Shown: positions 33,875 to 37,457 of the stretch, piece by piece
How positions within the stretch are numbered: position 1 is the first letter of the stretch
Layout of the letters: each line of letters starts with the position of its first letter
Assembly (NCBI RefSeq): GCF_900109575.1
Contig: NZ_FOAF01000007.1
Span: 186,001-250,000 of the forward strand
Source of the DNA: Olivibacter domesticus
Lineage (GTDB): Bacteria > Bacteroidota > Bacteroidia > Sphingobacteriales > Sphingobacteriaceae
Length of the DNA stretch: 64,000 nt
Reading direction: 5' to 3'
Made by a program: the position numbers and the translations under genes
Notes under the pieces: generated by a model
What the model was told of the DNA's origin: nothing
The model's database searches: none
The model's input: the letters and a program-made list of their open reading frames with translations, nothing else

Positions 33875-34675
33875 TTATGACTGATTCTCTTTATTTAACA
33901 CTGCAACAAAGTCCTTTATAGAAGAGGTCGGGTTAGCAGATTTCATAAAATTTTCGCCAATTAAAAACCCCTGAAAACCTGTGGTTTTTAGTGCTTTTAT
34001 AGATTCCGGATTACTTATACCACTTTCGGAAACTTTTATATATTGACGAGGAATCAGGTCCACCAAATCCAATGAATGTTGAATAGAAACTGAAAAATCC
34101 TTTAAATTTCTATTATTCACTCCTATGGCATCAATTTCCGCAATGGTATTCCCAATAAGCTCCTGCTCATTATGAATTTCTAAAAGCACATTTAATCCCA
34201 GTGACTTAGCATATTTAGCCAATCGTGCTACTTCTTCATTTGATAATACCGCAGCTATTAACAGAATGATGTCTGCACCATATGCTTTTGCTTCTGCTAT
34301 CTGATACTCATCTACGATAAAATCTTTCCTCAATAAAGGAATATTAACTGCTTTTCTTGCTTCCAGCAAATCAGTTAGCGATCCCTGAAAAAAATCATGG
34401 TCAGTTAAAACGGAAATAGCAGAGGCCCCTGCCTCGGCATAACCGGTTACCACTTCGGTAACAGAAACCGCATTGTTTATTATTCCTTTTGAAGGCGATG
34501 CTCTTTTGAATTCAGCTATTATACCTGTTCTTTCCTTATCAAGTATAAAATCTCTTAAATTATGACAGGGTCGATCGTAGAATATTCCATGTTTTAATTC
34601 TTCTTCACTTACTTTCCTTTTTGCCTGTGCTACCTCTATTCTTTTTCTTTCGATTATTTTATCTAATATAGTCAT
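33875..34675 (-). CDS. trpC: Indole-3-glycerol phosphate synthase
   Basis: Closes the indole ring in tryptophan synthesis. The 266-residue TIM-barrel protein has the family motifs IIAEFKRASPSKGII (near 52, catalytic Lys), ISVLTDHDFFQGSLTDL, PLLRKDFIVDEYQI (catalytic Lys) and IGVNNRNLKDFSV, with SESGI near 215 and FLIGENFM at the phosphate-binding end. It follows trpG by 34 nt and is the last trp gene here: neither trpD nor trpF/B/A is in the window. Confidence 0.97.
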   Translation of the reverse strand: MTILDKIIERKRIEVAQAKRKVSEEELKHGIFYDRPCHNLRDFILDKERTGIIAEFKRASPSKGIINNAVSVTEVVTGYAEAGASAISVLTDHDFFQGSLTDLLEARKAVNIPLLRKDFIVDEYQIAEAKAYGADIILLIAAVLSNEEVARLAKYAKSLGLNVLLEIHNEQELIGNTIAEIDAIGVNNRNLKDFSVSIQHSLDLVDLIPRQYIKVSESGISNPESIKALKTTGFQGFLIGENFMKSANPTSSIKDFVAVLNKENQS

Positions 34676-34709: not shown

Positions 34710-35303
34710 TTAATTATTCAACCAATTTTCAATAAGTTTCTTTCCATGTTCACTCAATACTGATTCGGGATGAAACTGCAAACCCTTAACATCATACTCT
34801 TTATGAGATAAAGCCATAATTACGCCATCATCATCTACTGCTGTTATTTCCAGCACGTCTGGAAAATCCAATTTATCTACCGCCCAAGAATGGTAACGCC
34901 CAATCATGAATCTCTCGGGCAACCCCTTGAATAATGGTTCGTCTCTAGTTAAAATCTTCAGTGGTGTAGCGGTTCCATGGACGGGTTTTTTCAAATTAAA
35001 CAATTTGCCTCCATAAACTTCTGCAATTGCTTGTTGCCCCAAACATATTCCCAGAATGCTTTTTGAATTCCCGTAGGCTCGAATAACATCTAATAACAAA
35101 CCAGCCTCCTCTGGAATTCCAGGTCCCGGAGATAAAAGAATTTTATCGTACGCTGCCACATCTTGCAACAAAAATTTATCGTTTCTCAGGACAGTACAAT
35201 CCATTCCGCATTCCTGCAGAAGGTGTACTAAATTGAAAGTAAAAGAATCATAATTATCTACTACCAATATTTTGGATTCAGTAGCAAGTTCCTTTTGTGC
35301 CAT
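34710..35303 (-). CDS. trpG: Anthranilate synthase glutamine amidotransferase component
   Basis: Supplies ammonia from glutamine to TrpE. The 197-residue class I amidotransferase shows VVDNYDSFTFNLVHLL, the oxyanion loop LLSPGPGIPEEAG, the nucleophile Cys in GICLGQQAIAEVYGG near residue 86, and the His-Glu pair in GLQFHPESVLSEHG near 175. It lies 57 nt after trpE and before trpC. It could also serve 4-amino-4-deoxychorismate synthesis, as in some bacteria with one shared subunit. Confidence 0.96.
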   Translation of the reverse strand: MAQKELATESKILVVDNYDSFTFNLVHLLQECGMDCTVLRNDKFLLQDVAAYDKILLSPGPGIPEEAGLLLDVIRAYGNSKSILGICLGQQAIAEVYGGKLFNLKKPVHGTATPLKILTRDEPLFKGLPERFMIGRYHSWAVDKLDFPDVLEITAVDDDGVIMALSHKEYDVKGLQFHPESVLSEHGKKLIENWLNN

Positions 35304-35360: not shown

Positions 35361-36770
35361 TCAGATATTTACAGCGAGTTCTACGGCTTTCCTTAATGCT
35401 GCAATCTTGTTATTGACTTCATTTAACTCTCCTTCAGCAGAAGAATCAGCTACTACTCCTCCTCCAGCTTGATAATGTAATCTGTTATTTTTACTCAGAA
35501 AAGTTCTTATCATGATAGCATGATTAAAATCACCATTAAAACCCATATAACCAATAGCACCGCTGTAAAAACCTCTTTGTTGTTTTTCGTAACGGTCTAT
35601 GAGCTGCATGGCCATATGTTTAGGAGCCCCGCTTAACGTTCCAGCAGGAAAAGTATCTCCAACAACGTCGAATGGATTTGCCCCTTGCTGCAGCTTCCCA
35701 CTTACTTTAGACACCAAATGTATTACATGTGAATAAAATTGCGCCTCTTTGAAAGACTTAACTTCCACATCTACACAATGCCTGCTCAAGTCGTTTCGTG
35801 CCAGATCAACTAGCATGACATGCTCTGCACTTTCTTTAGGATCAGCCTTTAGTTGCTCTGCCACACGTAGATCCTCAACCATATTTCCAGTCCGTTTAAA
35901 TGTTCCAGCAATTGGATAGATACTTGCTTCTTCATCTTTTATAGTAAGTTGCGCCTCTGGAGAAGAGCCGAACAACTTAAAATCGCCATAGTCAAAGTAA
36001 AACAAATAAGGTGAGGGATTTACAGACCGTAAACATCTGTAAACGTTAAATTCATCTCCTAAAAATGGTCTACTAAAAGCTCGTGATGGAACGATTTGAA
36101 AAACGTCTCCTCTAAAAATATGTCCCTTCGTTTTTTCAACCAAGGCTTTATACTCATCATCGGTTTTATTTGAGCTTTCTTCGCCATTAAGTTCAAATCG
36201 ATATTCGGGGAAATTTTTATTTTGTATTATGTATTGAACTCTATTTAACCCATCCTCTTTTGGGTCTTGATAATAATGTTCAAAAATATACAGTTCATTC
36301 CGAAAATGGTCGATAGCGATCACATAACGATAAACATGATATTGAAGATAAGGAATATTTCTGGCTTCATCGATCGTTGTATTCAAGGTTATATCTTCAA
36401 AATGCGCCACCGTATCAAAGGTAAAATAACCAAACAAACCGTTGGAGATAAATTTAAAATCTGAAGGCTGTTCTTCACTGAAAGACTGTCGAAATAATGA
36501 TACTTCCTTTCGTAAATTTAGCCCACTGACAGATTTAGTTTGTTTTTCCCCATCCGGATAATAAACATTTAGCTCCTCGTGATCCAATACTATTCCAGCA
36601 ATAGGATCACAGCATACATAGCTCATATTGTTTTCTCTGCTGTGGTAGTCGGAGCTTTCTAGTAAAATGCTATTAGGAAATACATCTCGTAGACGTAAAT
36701 AAATACTAACTGGTGTTGTGGTATCTGCCAGTAATTTTTTAAATCTTGTTTTTAGCTGATAGTTGCTCAT
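35361..36770 (-). CDS. trpE: Anthranilate synthase component I
   Basis: Makes anthranilate from chorismate. The 469-residue protein has the N-terminal regulatory region with ILLESSDYHSRENNMS near residue 35, the L-L-E-S motif that binds feedback tryptophan, and the chorismate-binding domain with EHVMLVDLARNDLSRHC, GDTFPAGTLSGAPKHMAM and FYSGAIGYMGFNGDFNHAIM. Expression should be controlled by the attenuator and Trp-rich leader just upstream. Gene order is trpL-trpE-trpG-trpC. Confidence 0.97.
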   Translation of the reverse strand: MSNYQLKTRFKKLLADTTTPVSIYLRLRDVFPNSILLESSDYHSRENNMSYVCCDPIAGIVLDHEELNVYYPDGEKQTKSVSGLNLRKEVSLFRQSFSEEQPSDFKFISNGLFGYFTFDTVAHFEDITLNTTIDEARNIPYLQYHVYRYVIAIDHFRNELYIFEHYYQDPKEDGLNRVQYIIQNKNFPEYRFELNGEESSNKTDDEYKALVEKTKGHIFRGDVFQIVPSRAFSRPFLGDEFNVYRCLRSVNPSPYLFYFDYGDFKLFGSSPEAQLTIKDEEASIYPIAGTFKRTGNMVEDLRVAEQLKADPKESAEHVMLVDLARNDLSRHCVDVEVKSFKEAQFYSHVIHLVSKVSGKLQQGANPFDVVGDTFPAGTLSGAPKHMAMQLIDRYEKQQRGFYSGAIGYMGFNGDFNHAIMIRTFLSKNNRLHYQAGGGVVADSSAEGELNEVNNKIAALRKAVELAVNI

Positions 36771-36806
36771 TTATATATTTTTTCACTTTTTAACATCTTT
36801 TTAAAC

Positions 36807-36836
36807 ACAAAAAAACCCGACGTTTTGTGTCGGGTT
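36807..36836 (-). terminator. trp attenuator terminator
   Basis: On the minus strand, AACCCGAC - 7-nt loop - GTCGGGTT, a perfect 8-bp stem directly followed by a T-run, lies between the leader peptide and trpE (36 nt before the trpE ATG). Premature termination here would cut expression of trpEGC when tryptophan is plentiful. The leader also carries GCCGGG, which could pair with the 5' arm as part of an antiterminator. Confidence 0.85.
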
Positions 36837-36863
36837 AATTTTTTAAGGCTTTGGTTGATCAAT

Positions 36864-36944
36864 CTATGCCATAAATACGTGTTCCCGGCGTTGCTCTTTA
36901 TTAGGCCACCACCAGTTACGTAATGAAGTTTCGATTGTCATCAT
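36864..36944 (-). CDS. trpL: trp operon leader peptide with three tandem Trp codons
   Basis: A 26-residue reading frame on the minus strand: MMTIETSLRNWWWPNKEQRR followed by EHVFMA. The three consecutive TGG codons occupy 36906-36914. The stop lies 28 nt before the attenuator stem. A promoter with TTTG and TACGTTTG sits just upstream. This is the arrangement expected for ribosome-mediated attenuation: stalling at Trp codons when tRNA-Trp is uncharged would favour read-through into trpE. A second ATG follows the first, so either Met may initiate. Confidence 0.9.
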   Translation of the reverse strand: MMTIETSLRNWWWPNKEQRREHVFMA

Positions 36945-36948
36945 AAAG

Positions 36949-36979
36949 CAAACGTAATATAAAATTTCAATATATCAAA
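36949..36979 (-). promoter_or_regulatory. trp operon promoter
   Basis: Minus-strand TTTG (36976-36979), 19 nt, TACGTTTG (36949-36956): a full Bacteroidota promoter. The -7 box ends four bases before the leader-peptide ATG, so the leader mRNA may begin at its start codon. Confidence 0.8.
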
Positions 36980-37004
36980 TTTTTTTATTGAGAGAGGGCG
37001 AAAT

Positions 37005-37457
37005 TTAAACGCCCCAAAAAGTTATAAACCCTTTGTTCACCGCCATCATTATCGCCCCTATAATAATAACTAGCGCGATGGTATAAAAAACCGCAATCGG
37101 TTTATGTTTAGCGGCAGAATTTATTGCCTTTTTTGATTTAGAATGGCCTACCGTAATTAATACAATTGCAAGTACCATCATGATAACATGCTCTACCGTC
37201 CAATACCTTAGATTAGCAGTTTTCATAACAGTTCCCATATCACTAAATGATACCATCGTACTCATTGTATATAAAACGATCCCCACAACTAACTGGATAT
37301 GAGCAGCTATTAATGTAAATAAATTTAGTTTACGATTACCTTCCGTATAAGTTTTCTTCCCAATAACACCGCTAATTGCTGTGATGATAGCCAGTATTAA
37401 TAATAAAAGTACTACGTAGCGCAGACCCGAATGTAAGTGTTTAAAAGCTGTATACAT
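37005..37457 (-). CDS. Small four-helix membrane protein ('cytochrome b-like' of Sphingobacteria), function unknown
   Basis: A 150-residue inner-membrane protein with four hydrophobic helices (YVVLLLLILAIITAISGVIG, LFTLIAAHIQLVVGIVLYTM, WTVEHVIMMVLAIVLITVGH, AVFYTIALVIIIGAIMMAV). Histidines at helix ends (HLHSG, AAHIQ, VEHVI, GHSKS) could bind heme, and relatives are sometimes called cytochrome b, but this is unproved. A TATTTTTG box lies at 37481-37488 upstream. It ends just before the trp promoter, transcribed toward it. Confidence 0.7.
   Translation of the reverse strand: MYTAFKHLHSGLRYVVLLLLILAIITAISGVIGKKTYTEGNRKLNLFTLIAAHIQLVVGIVLYTMSTMVSFSDMGTVMKTANLRYWTVEHVIMMVLAIVLITVGHSKSKKAINSAAKHKPIAVFYTIALVIIIGAIMMAVNKGFITFWGV

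Follow-up and report, generated by a model that had tools for sequence, protein, structure and literature searches.

The window analysed here, a 64,000-nucleotide stretch of the 6.78 Mb genome of Olivibacter domesticus, encodes trpE, trpG and trpC in that order, preceded by a short leader region (Table 1). The trpE reading frame begins with an ATG at 36770, and the closest named trpE among the matches listed is that of Olivibacter jilunii (87% identical). In 77 of the best 80 of 583 trpE relatives, trpG and trpC, without trpD, follow trpE in the 2 kb fetched; in the remaining three loci the sequence ends too early to read the genes after trpE. Just upstream of the leader promoter lies a 150-aa gene (37005-37457) that is membrane-protein-like by eye and gave no match in an NCBIfam search at E 1e-5. 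It shares the strand of the leader, and 60 nt separate its end from the leader ATG.

Table 1. Features of the trp leader, the downstream genes and the second trp leader of the same genome. Positions are those of the window unless a contig is named.
Feature	Positions	Strand	Basis
-33 element TTTG, Bacteroidota primary-sigma promoter	36976-36979	minus	sequence
-7 element TACGTTTG (TAnnTTTG)	36949-36956	minus	sequence; box end to ATG = 4 nt
Predicted +1, A of leader ATG	36944	minus	prediction from Flavobacterium box spacing
Leader peptide gene MMTIETSLRNWWWPNKEQRREHVFMA, 26 codons + TAG	36864-36944	minus	sequence
Leader start ATG	36944-36942	minus	sequence
Leader stop TAG	36866-36864	minus	sequence
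Three Trp codons TGGTGGTGG, codons 11-13, sensor	36906-36914	minus	sequence
Segment 1 CUGGUG, 5' arm of 1:2 (protector) hairpin	36910-36915	minus	minimum-energy fold
Segment 2 CGCCGGG	36884-36890	minus	folds
Segment 3 AACCCGAC, terminator 5' arm and antiterminator 3' partner	36829-36836	minus	sequence, fold
Segment 4 GTCGGGTT, terminator 3' arm	36814-36821	minus	sequence, fold
Terminator hairpin AACCCGAC-loop-GTCGGGTT, 8-bp stem	36836-36814	minus	sequence
T-run of intrinsic terminator	36809-36815	minus	sequence
trpE, anthranilate synthase component I	35361-36770	minus	best NCBIfam match TIGR00564 trpE_most, 427 bits, below cut-off (517.7)
trpG, glutamine amidotransferase component	34710-35303	minus	TIGR00566 trpG_papA, 168.8 bits, above cut-off (121.05)
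trpC, indole-3-glycerol phosphate synthase	33875-34675	minus	NF001377, 306.2 bits, above cut-off (260)
trpD leader, WWW, MKTIFAHINWWWHEG	G000:C12:126324-126373, L235 upstream of trpD	minus	sequence

The initial annotation had placed a trp attenuator at 36807-36979, made up of a 26-codon frame with three Trp codons, a TTTG-N19-TACGTTTG promoter and an 8-bp terminator upstream of trpE. All of these parts are present in the sequence, the coordinates are correct and every part lies on the minus strand. The spacer between the -33 and -7 elements is 19 nt, CTTT separates the -7 box from the leader ATG, and a second ATG directly follows the first. The leader can form three mutually exclusive hairpins: in the folds of the window, the CGCCGG portion of segment 2 pairs with segment 1 and its CGGG portion with segment 3, which is also the 5' arm of the terminator. 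The protector hairpin (1:2), present in the window fold, overlaps the Trp codons through CUGGUG of segment 1. Of 200 shuffled versions of the whole 146-nt leader, 199 fold less well than the native sequence (z -3.0). At the gathering threshold, the sole Rfam match over the window is a tRNA elsewhere. Membership of the Rfam family RF00513 (Trp_leader) was rejected, with a score of 17.7 bits (E 0.27) against a gathering threshold of 41 bits, as was a T-box leader, which is absent from the 24 Rfam matches obtained for 36780-37000 at E up to 10.

The leader is conserved with trpE. Our comparison used an 81-locus set, consisting of the window and the best 80 of 583 trpE relatives from a scan of genome contigs; by title nearly all of these 80 belong to Sphingobacteriaceae genera, the otherwise titled ones being L065 (Flavihumibacter), L024 and L077. 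Loci L083-L112 (30 loci), L001-L002, L195, L226-L231 and L237-L258 lie outside all counts. By eye, a Trp-rich short frame stands upstream of trpE in the window and in 80/80 relatives, and leader and terminator were parsed in 81/81 loci. Loss of the TGG triplet in relatives had been named by the initial annotation as an outcome that would speak against it; Trp codons are kept in all 81 loci, the first three codons of the run being TGGTGGTGG in 51; a further 25 loci have TGGTGG with a different third codon, and 5 have TGG-x-TGG. Nine codons precede the first Trp codon in 51/81 loci (range 6-11), counted from the ATG chosen by the script; the window has 10, counted from its first ATG. An automatic criterion (TTTG, 3-10 nt, ATG, and in-frame WW or WxW within 13 codons) recovered 79 of the 81 loci on the coding strand and none on the opposite strand, missing L024, which has a GTG start, and L059, where the box is not close. 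A chance frame was rejected on this basis, since 50 Markov controls gave a mean of 0.34/81 and a maximum of 2/81.

The alternative pairings are conserved as well. At the position of segment 2, the best 80 of 583 relatives carry GCGUCGGG, GCAUCGGG or GCGCCGGG and variants, and segment 3 occurs as CCCGACG, CCCGAUGC or CCCGGCG, each of these terminator 5' arms being able to pair with segment 2. The spacing is nearly fixed: measured from the first base of the first Trp codon (W1), the median distance to the start of the 2:3 duplex is 21 nt, one unpaired flanking base included, and it is 18-24 nt in 74 loci of the 81-locus set. The footprint of a ribosome stalled on the three Trp codons (W1-W3) would end just short of this start. 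Concerted changes in segments 2, 3 and 4 were seen as GCAUCGGG / CCCGAUGC / GUAUCGGG in ten loci and as GCGCCGGG / CCCGGCGC / ACGCCGGG in one (L036). Over 66 distinct pairs, segment 2 and its own segment 3 reach a mean of -12.5 kcal/mol, compared with -11.0 for permuted partners, and 0 of 20000 permutations were as good as the native partners; duplex controls gave -6.8 for letter-shuffled regions, -3.7 for stretches before W1 and -2.7 for the linker. In 27/81 loci the native partner is no better than the average swapped one. Counted cell by cell over 60 distinct rows, 2:3 is paired in 409/540 cells (0.757; mean 0.728 and maximum 0.748 in 2000 permutations) and 3:4 in 491/540 (0.909; mean 0.854 and maximum 0.876 in 2000 permutations), margins that are small but consistent and that come from permutation tests which ignore the kinship of the loci. 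Slid versions of the pairing alignment reach at most 0.41 paired. An A-C mismatch occurs within the 2:3 helix in 17/60 rows, and L059 has almost no antiterminator (-3.1).

In the window itself the antiterminator core is weak, with 4 G-C pairs and -7.5 kcal/mol as a duplex, and with an inner helix it reaches -9.7, which is not better than shuffles (z -0.87, 37/200). The competing antiterminator stem, for which the initial annotation had looked to an alignment of relatives, is present at a nearly constant spacing from the Trp codons, and its sequence changes in step with that of the terminator; in the window it is weak. The stop codon of the window leader starts about 17 nt past segment 2, so that a ribosome at the stop may leave segment 2 uncovered. 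Between segment 2 and the terminator, a linker stretch like AATCAACCAAAACC (window 36847-36860, minus strand) is conserved in many genera; no obvious pairing partner for it was found in the consensus of the 81-locus set, and it is possibly a pause or spacer element.

The promoter stands close to the leader start almost throughout the 81-locus set. By script, the distance from box to start is 3-10 nt in 79/81 loci (74 with a strict box and 5 with a relaxed one), and 63/81 have an exact TTTG followed 18-20 nt later by a strict TAnnTTTG box. The exceptions are L059, at 34 nt, and L030, at 65 nt by the strict pattern; in L030 a nearer box, AATATTTG, is visible by eye at 7 nt, bringing the count to 80/81. 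In F. psychrophilum the TAnnTTTG box spans -12 to -5 relative to the transcription start (PMC9723704), and a figure legend on F. johnsoniae singles out candidates with a box-to-start-site spacing of 4 or 5 nt (PMC6847099). Because the 4-nt gap between box and ATG in the window matches this published Flavobacterium spacing, the A of the first leader ATG is the likely +1, as predicted from the position of the box. Promoter position predicts a 5' UTR of 0 nt in the window and of about 0-6 nt in 79 loci of the 81-locus set. A start downstream of the leader frame would have told against the initial annotation; the predicted promoter precedes that frame.

Outside the family, a phylum search with trpE at E 1e-100 gave a strong match in 56/247 genomes and none in 191, and we used the upstream regions of 49 of the 56, all outside the family and labelled as the same class. 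A WW or WWW frame stands upstream of trpE in 48 of these 49 genomes; in L185 a Trp leader was looked for upstream of trpE and none was found, and in L186 a terminator parse was attempted and none was obtained. The automatic criterion recovers only 20/49 loci, because box-to-ATG distances are longer there. These distances, obtained in 43/49 loci, are 16-20 nt in 13/14 loci of genus g29 and in 17/26 loci of family f4, and 4-7 nt in several other genera; one f4 locus, L149, was assigned 1 nt owing to an early in-frame ATG. With the terminator 5' arm alone as target, no antiterminator signal was seen in the 47 other-family loci (mean z -0.37, 9/47 below -1.64). With the loop and part of the 3' arm as target, the mean z is -2.7 and at most 10 of 200 shuffles are as good in 35/47 loci, a result that counts as support and not as an independent test, since this target was chosen after the test of the 5' arm alone had come out null. 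The leader/terminator duplex starts 19-29 nt after W1 in 42/47 loci, and 12/47 show little duplex signal (worst in L164, L172, L175, L176 and L182). In f4, leader GUCGUGA pairs with UCACGAC across the loop and 3' arm, at W1+26 in 17/26 loci. In f4 loci (among L142-L178) the antiterminator partner seems to be the terminator loop plus 3' arm, not the 5' arm, and to judge from these pairings the f4 antiterminator seems to differ in topology while lying about as far from the Trp codons.

The genome of the window carries a second trp cluster. There, trpD and trpB are found together on another contig, unlinked to trpE-trpG-trpC, and a single trp operon was rejected on that ground. In one locus (L233), trpD is followed by a frame that we take, by eye, to be TrpF-like. 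A WWW leader precedes trpD in this genome (Table 1) and in three further Olivibacter genomes; in a fifth, the trpD contig ends too early, and a very similar leader, a candidate trpD leader, was found by pattern search on another contig. The genus-wide pattern TTTG-N3..13-ATG-N15..33-TGGTGGTGG gave 18 matches over 5 genomes, of which 10 are trp leaders, with the trpE leader matched in 5/5 genomes and the trpD leader in 4/5; controls gave 0-2 matches per genome. The terminator of the trpD leader, GGCUUGCC...GCAAGCC, has no obvious sequence likeness to that of trpE. By eye, the 1:2 stem of the trpD leaders is compensated among four species (CAUAAAG/CUUUAUG, CACGA/UCGUG), the stop codon lies inside the loop of the 1:2 hairpin, and UUGCC in the terminator arm has a possible partner in GGCAA, the segment 2 that lies about 26 nt past W1. 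From TTTG to ATG these leaders measure 9-11 nt. Both halves of the split trp pathway seem, from their leader sequences, to carry separate attenuators of the same plan.

In most his leaders of the family the box stands about 30 nt from the start. A hisG match was obtained in 48 genomes. Of the 30 best loci (L114/L196, on C2 of the window's own genome, and L197-L225), 28 encode a His-rich leader, which reads MIKVFAHHIHFHHRPCGDM in the genome of the window; these are probable histidine attenuators. A box was found for 27 of the 28; the nearest one is at least 23 nt away in 24 of these (32 nt in the window's genome), so a close box is not general for attenuators of the family. The exceptions among these loci are L198 at 6 nt, L206 at 9 nt and L225 at 7 nt, two of them belonging to Olivibacter, a genus with four genomes listed among the 30 best. 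Judged by promoter position, nearly every family member sampled probably has a leaderless or near-leaderless trp attenuator, in contrast to most his leaders. Phe/Tyr-rich leader frames (AYWFFGYFYF and relatives) stand before the prephenate dehydratase (PDT) gene in 5/5 Olivibacter genomes (L137-L141), with a box distance of about 20 nt as read in L141 only. Thr/Ile-rich short frames (e.g. MATSSTITTSTIITTGIYHRGK) occur in four Olivibacter genomes (L191-L194), near the estimated start of an 815-aa gene containing homoserine dehydrogenase; a thr leader can be seen there, for which an attempt to place the promoter gave no result. A pattern search for an ilv leader upstream of ilvD returned none that was convincing.

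The conservation of the leader, the spacing and the co-variation of 2:3 and 3:4 support the ribosome-mediated trp attenuator proposed by the initial annotation, and we hold with high confidence that the leader is a classical transcription attenuator of trpE-trpG-trpC. Its mechanism would be the textbook one for trp attenuators. A ribosome would start on the leader ATG, at or a few nucleotides from the 5' end of the RNA. When charged tRNA-Trp is scarce, it would stall on the UGG codons, opening the 1:2 hairpin and leaving segment 2 free to pair with segment 3; with this antiterminator in place no terminator would form and trpE would be transcribed. When Trp is plentiful, the ribosome would pass over segment 2, segment 3 would pair with segment 4, and transcription would stop before trpE.

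The leader could instead act through its product, as a regulatory arrest peptide of the kind known from TnaC or as a trans-acting peptide, so that the peptide sequence would matter beyond codon reading. WWWP does recur in many loci of the 81-locus set, and a trans role has been published for another trpL product, peTrpL of Sinorhizobium (PMC7298713); however, by eye the peptide outside its Trp residues varies between genera, whereas codon position, spacing and RNA pairing are conserved, and we consider such a role very improbable. We give practically no credence to an ordinary terminator of the 37005-37457 gene with a chance Trp-rich frame beside it. That gene does end on the same strand just 60 nt before the leader ATG, and chance Trp-containing frames do occur further upstream in the loci, but a promoter lies between the gene and the terminator, the arrangement is conserved across the 81-locus set with controls near zero, and a second copy of the plan is found at trpD.

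It is also possible, though in our judgement unlikely, that the attenuator works as described on a leadered mRNA, a start further upstream or another -7 spacing giving a 5' UTR of 10-30 nt. The start in the window is a predicted one, the longer box-to-ATG distances of f4 lie in the direction of this reading, and a 5' UTR of about 0-6 nt is uncommon within Bacteroidota: 5' UTRs under 10 nt make up about 3.7% in B. thetaiotaomicron (PMC7366714), leaderless mRNAs account for 5.5% in F. psychrophilum (PMC9723704) and 87% of predicted F. johnsoniae transcripts have a 5' UTR of more than 10 nt (PMC6847099). Against it stand the short box-to-start distance in nearly all loci of the 81-locus set and, in most of them, a strict box preceded by an exact -33 TTTG, which place the UTR under about 8 nt even allowing 1-2 nt of slack. 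To our knowledge, Bacteroidota mRNAs do without Shine-Dalgarno sequences, and most of them carry a 5' UTR. A more speculative extension of the attenuator model, which we regard as unlikely, is that initiation at a 5'-terminal AUG is a selected part of the trp switch. The ribosome would load once the RNA 5' end emerges from the polymerase, and the switch would then respond to the initiation machinery (e.g. free 70S ribosomes) besides charged tRNA-Trp.

In the E. coli trp leader, tandem Trp codons are combined with 1:2, 2:3 and 3:4 hairpins and a terminator before trpE. The window leader resembles this enteric arrangement in its tandem Trp codons, three hairpins and terminator before trpE; unlike the enteric leader (RF00513), it probably has no 5' UTR and it has a Bacteroidota-type promoter, and unlike the enteric operon, trpEGC is separate from trpD and trpB. 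The initial annotation considered a leader codon near +1 unusual for an attenuator, which is too strong given the precedents in Streptomyces lividans trpL1 and Sinorhizobium meliloti rnTrpL (PMC8079986, PMC7298713). The former (MFAHSTRNWWWTAHPAAH, upstream of trpE) is reported to be transcribed leaderless and shares with the window three Trp codons, there from codon 9, followed by hairpins and a U-stretch before trpE (PMC8079986); it differs in belonging to Actinobacteria and in preceding a monocistronic trpE. S. meliloti rnTrpL begins with the ATG of trpL and mediates attenuation of trpE(G), so that its Trp leader ATG stands at the RNA start, as predicted for the window; unlike the window, it comes from an alphaproteobacterium, and trans roles are published for the released RNA and peptide (PMC7298713). 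With leaderless trp attenuators already in the literature from Streptomyces and Sinorhizobium, the window leader joins a known type. Within the same phylum, F. psychrophilum is reported to show strong signs of attenuation by leader peptides ahead of its amino-acid biosynthesis operons, in a statement that describes no trp leader (PMC9723704). This general statement on amino-acid operons was all that a search of the open-access literature for a Bacteroidota trp attenuator returned (PMC9723704), and a printed description of one may well exist already.

Our analysis documents classical trp attenuation, with co-variation of terminator and antiterminator, in one Bacteroidota family, and trp attenuation is likely present in seven other families sampled within the class. 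It also provides a comparison within a single genome, where two unlinked trp clusters carry separate attenuators and a trp leader that is probably leaderless can be set against a his leader with its promoter at a distance of about 30 nt. This contrast between trp and his leaders offers a way into the question of how leaderless initiation affects transcription-translation coupling.
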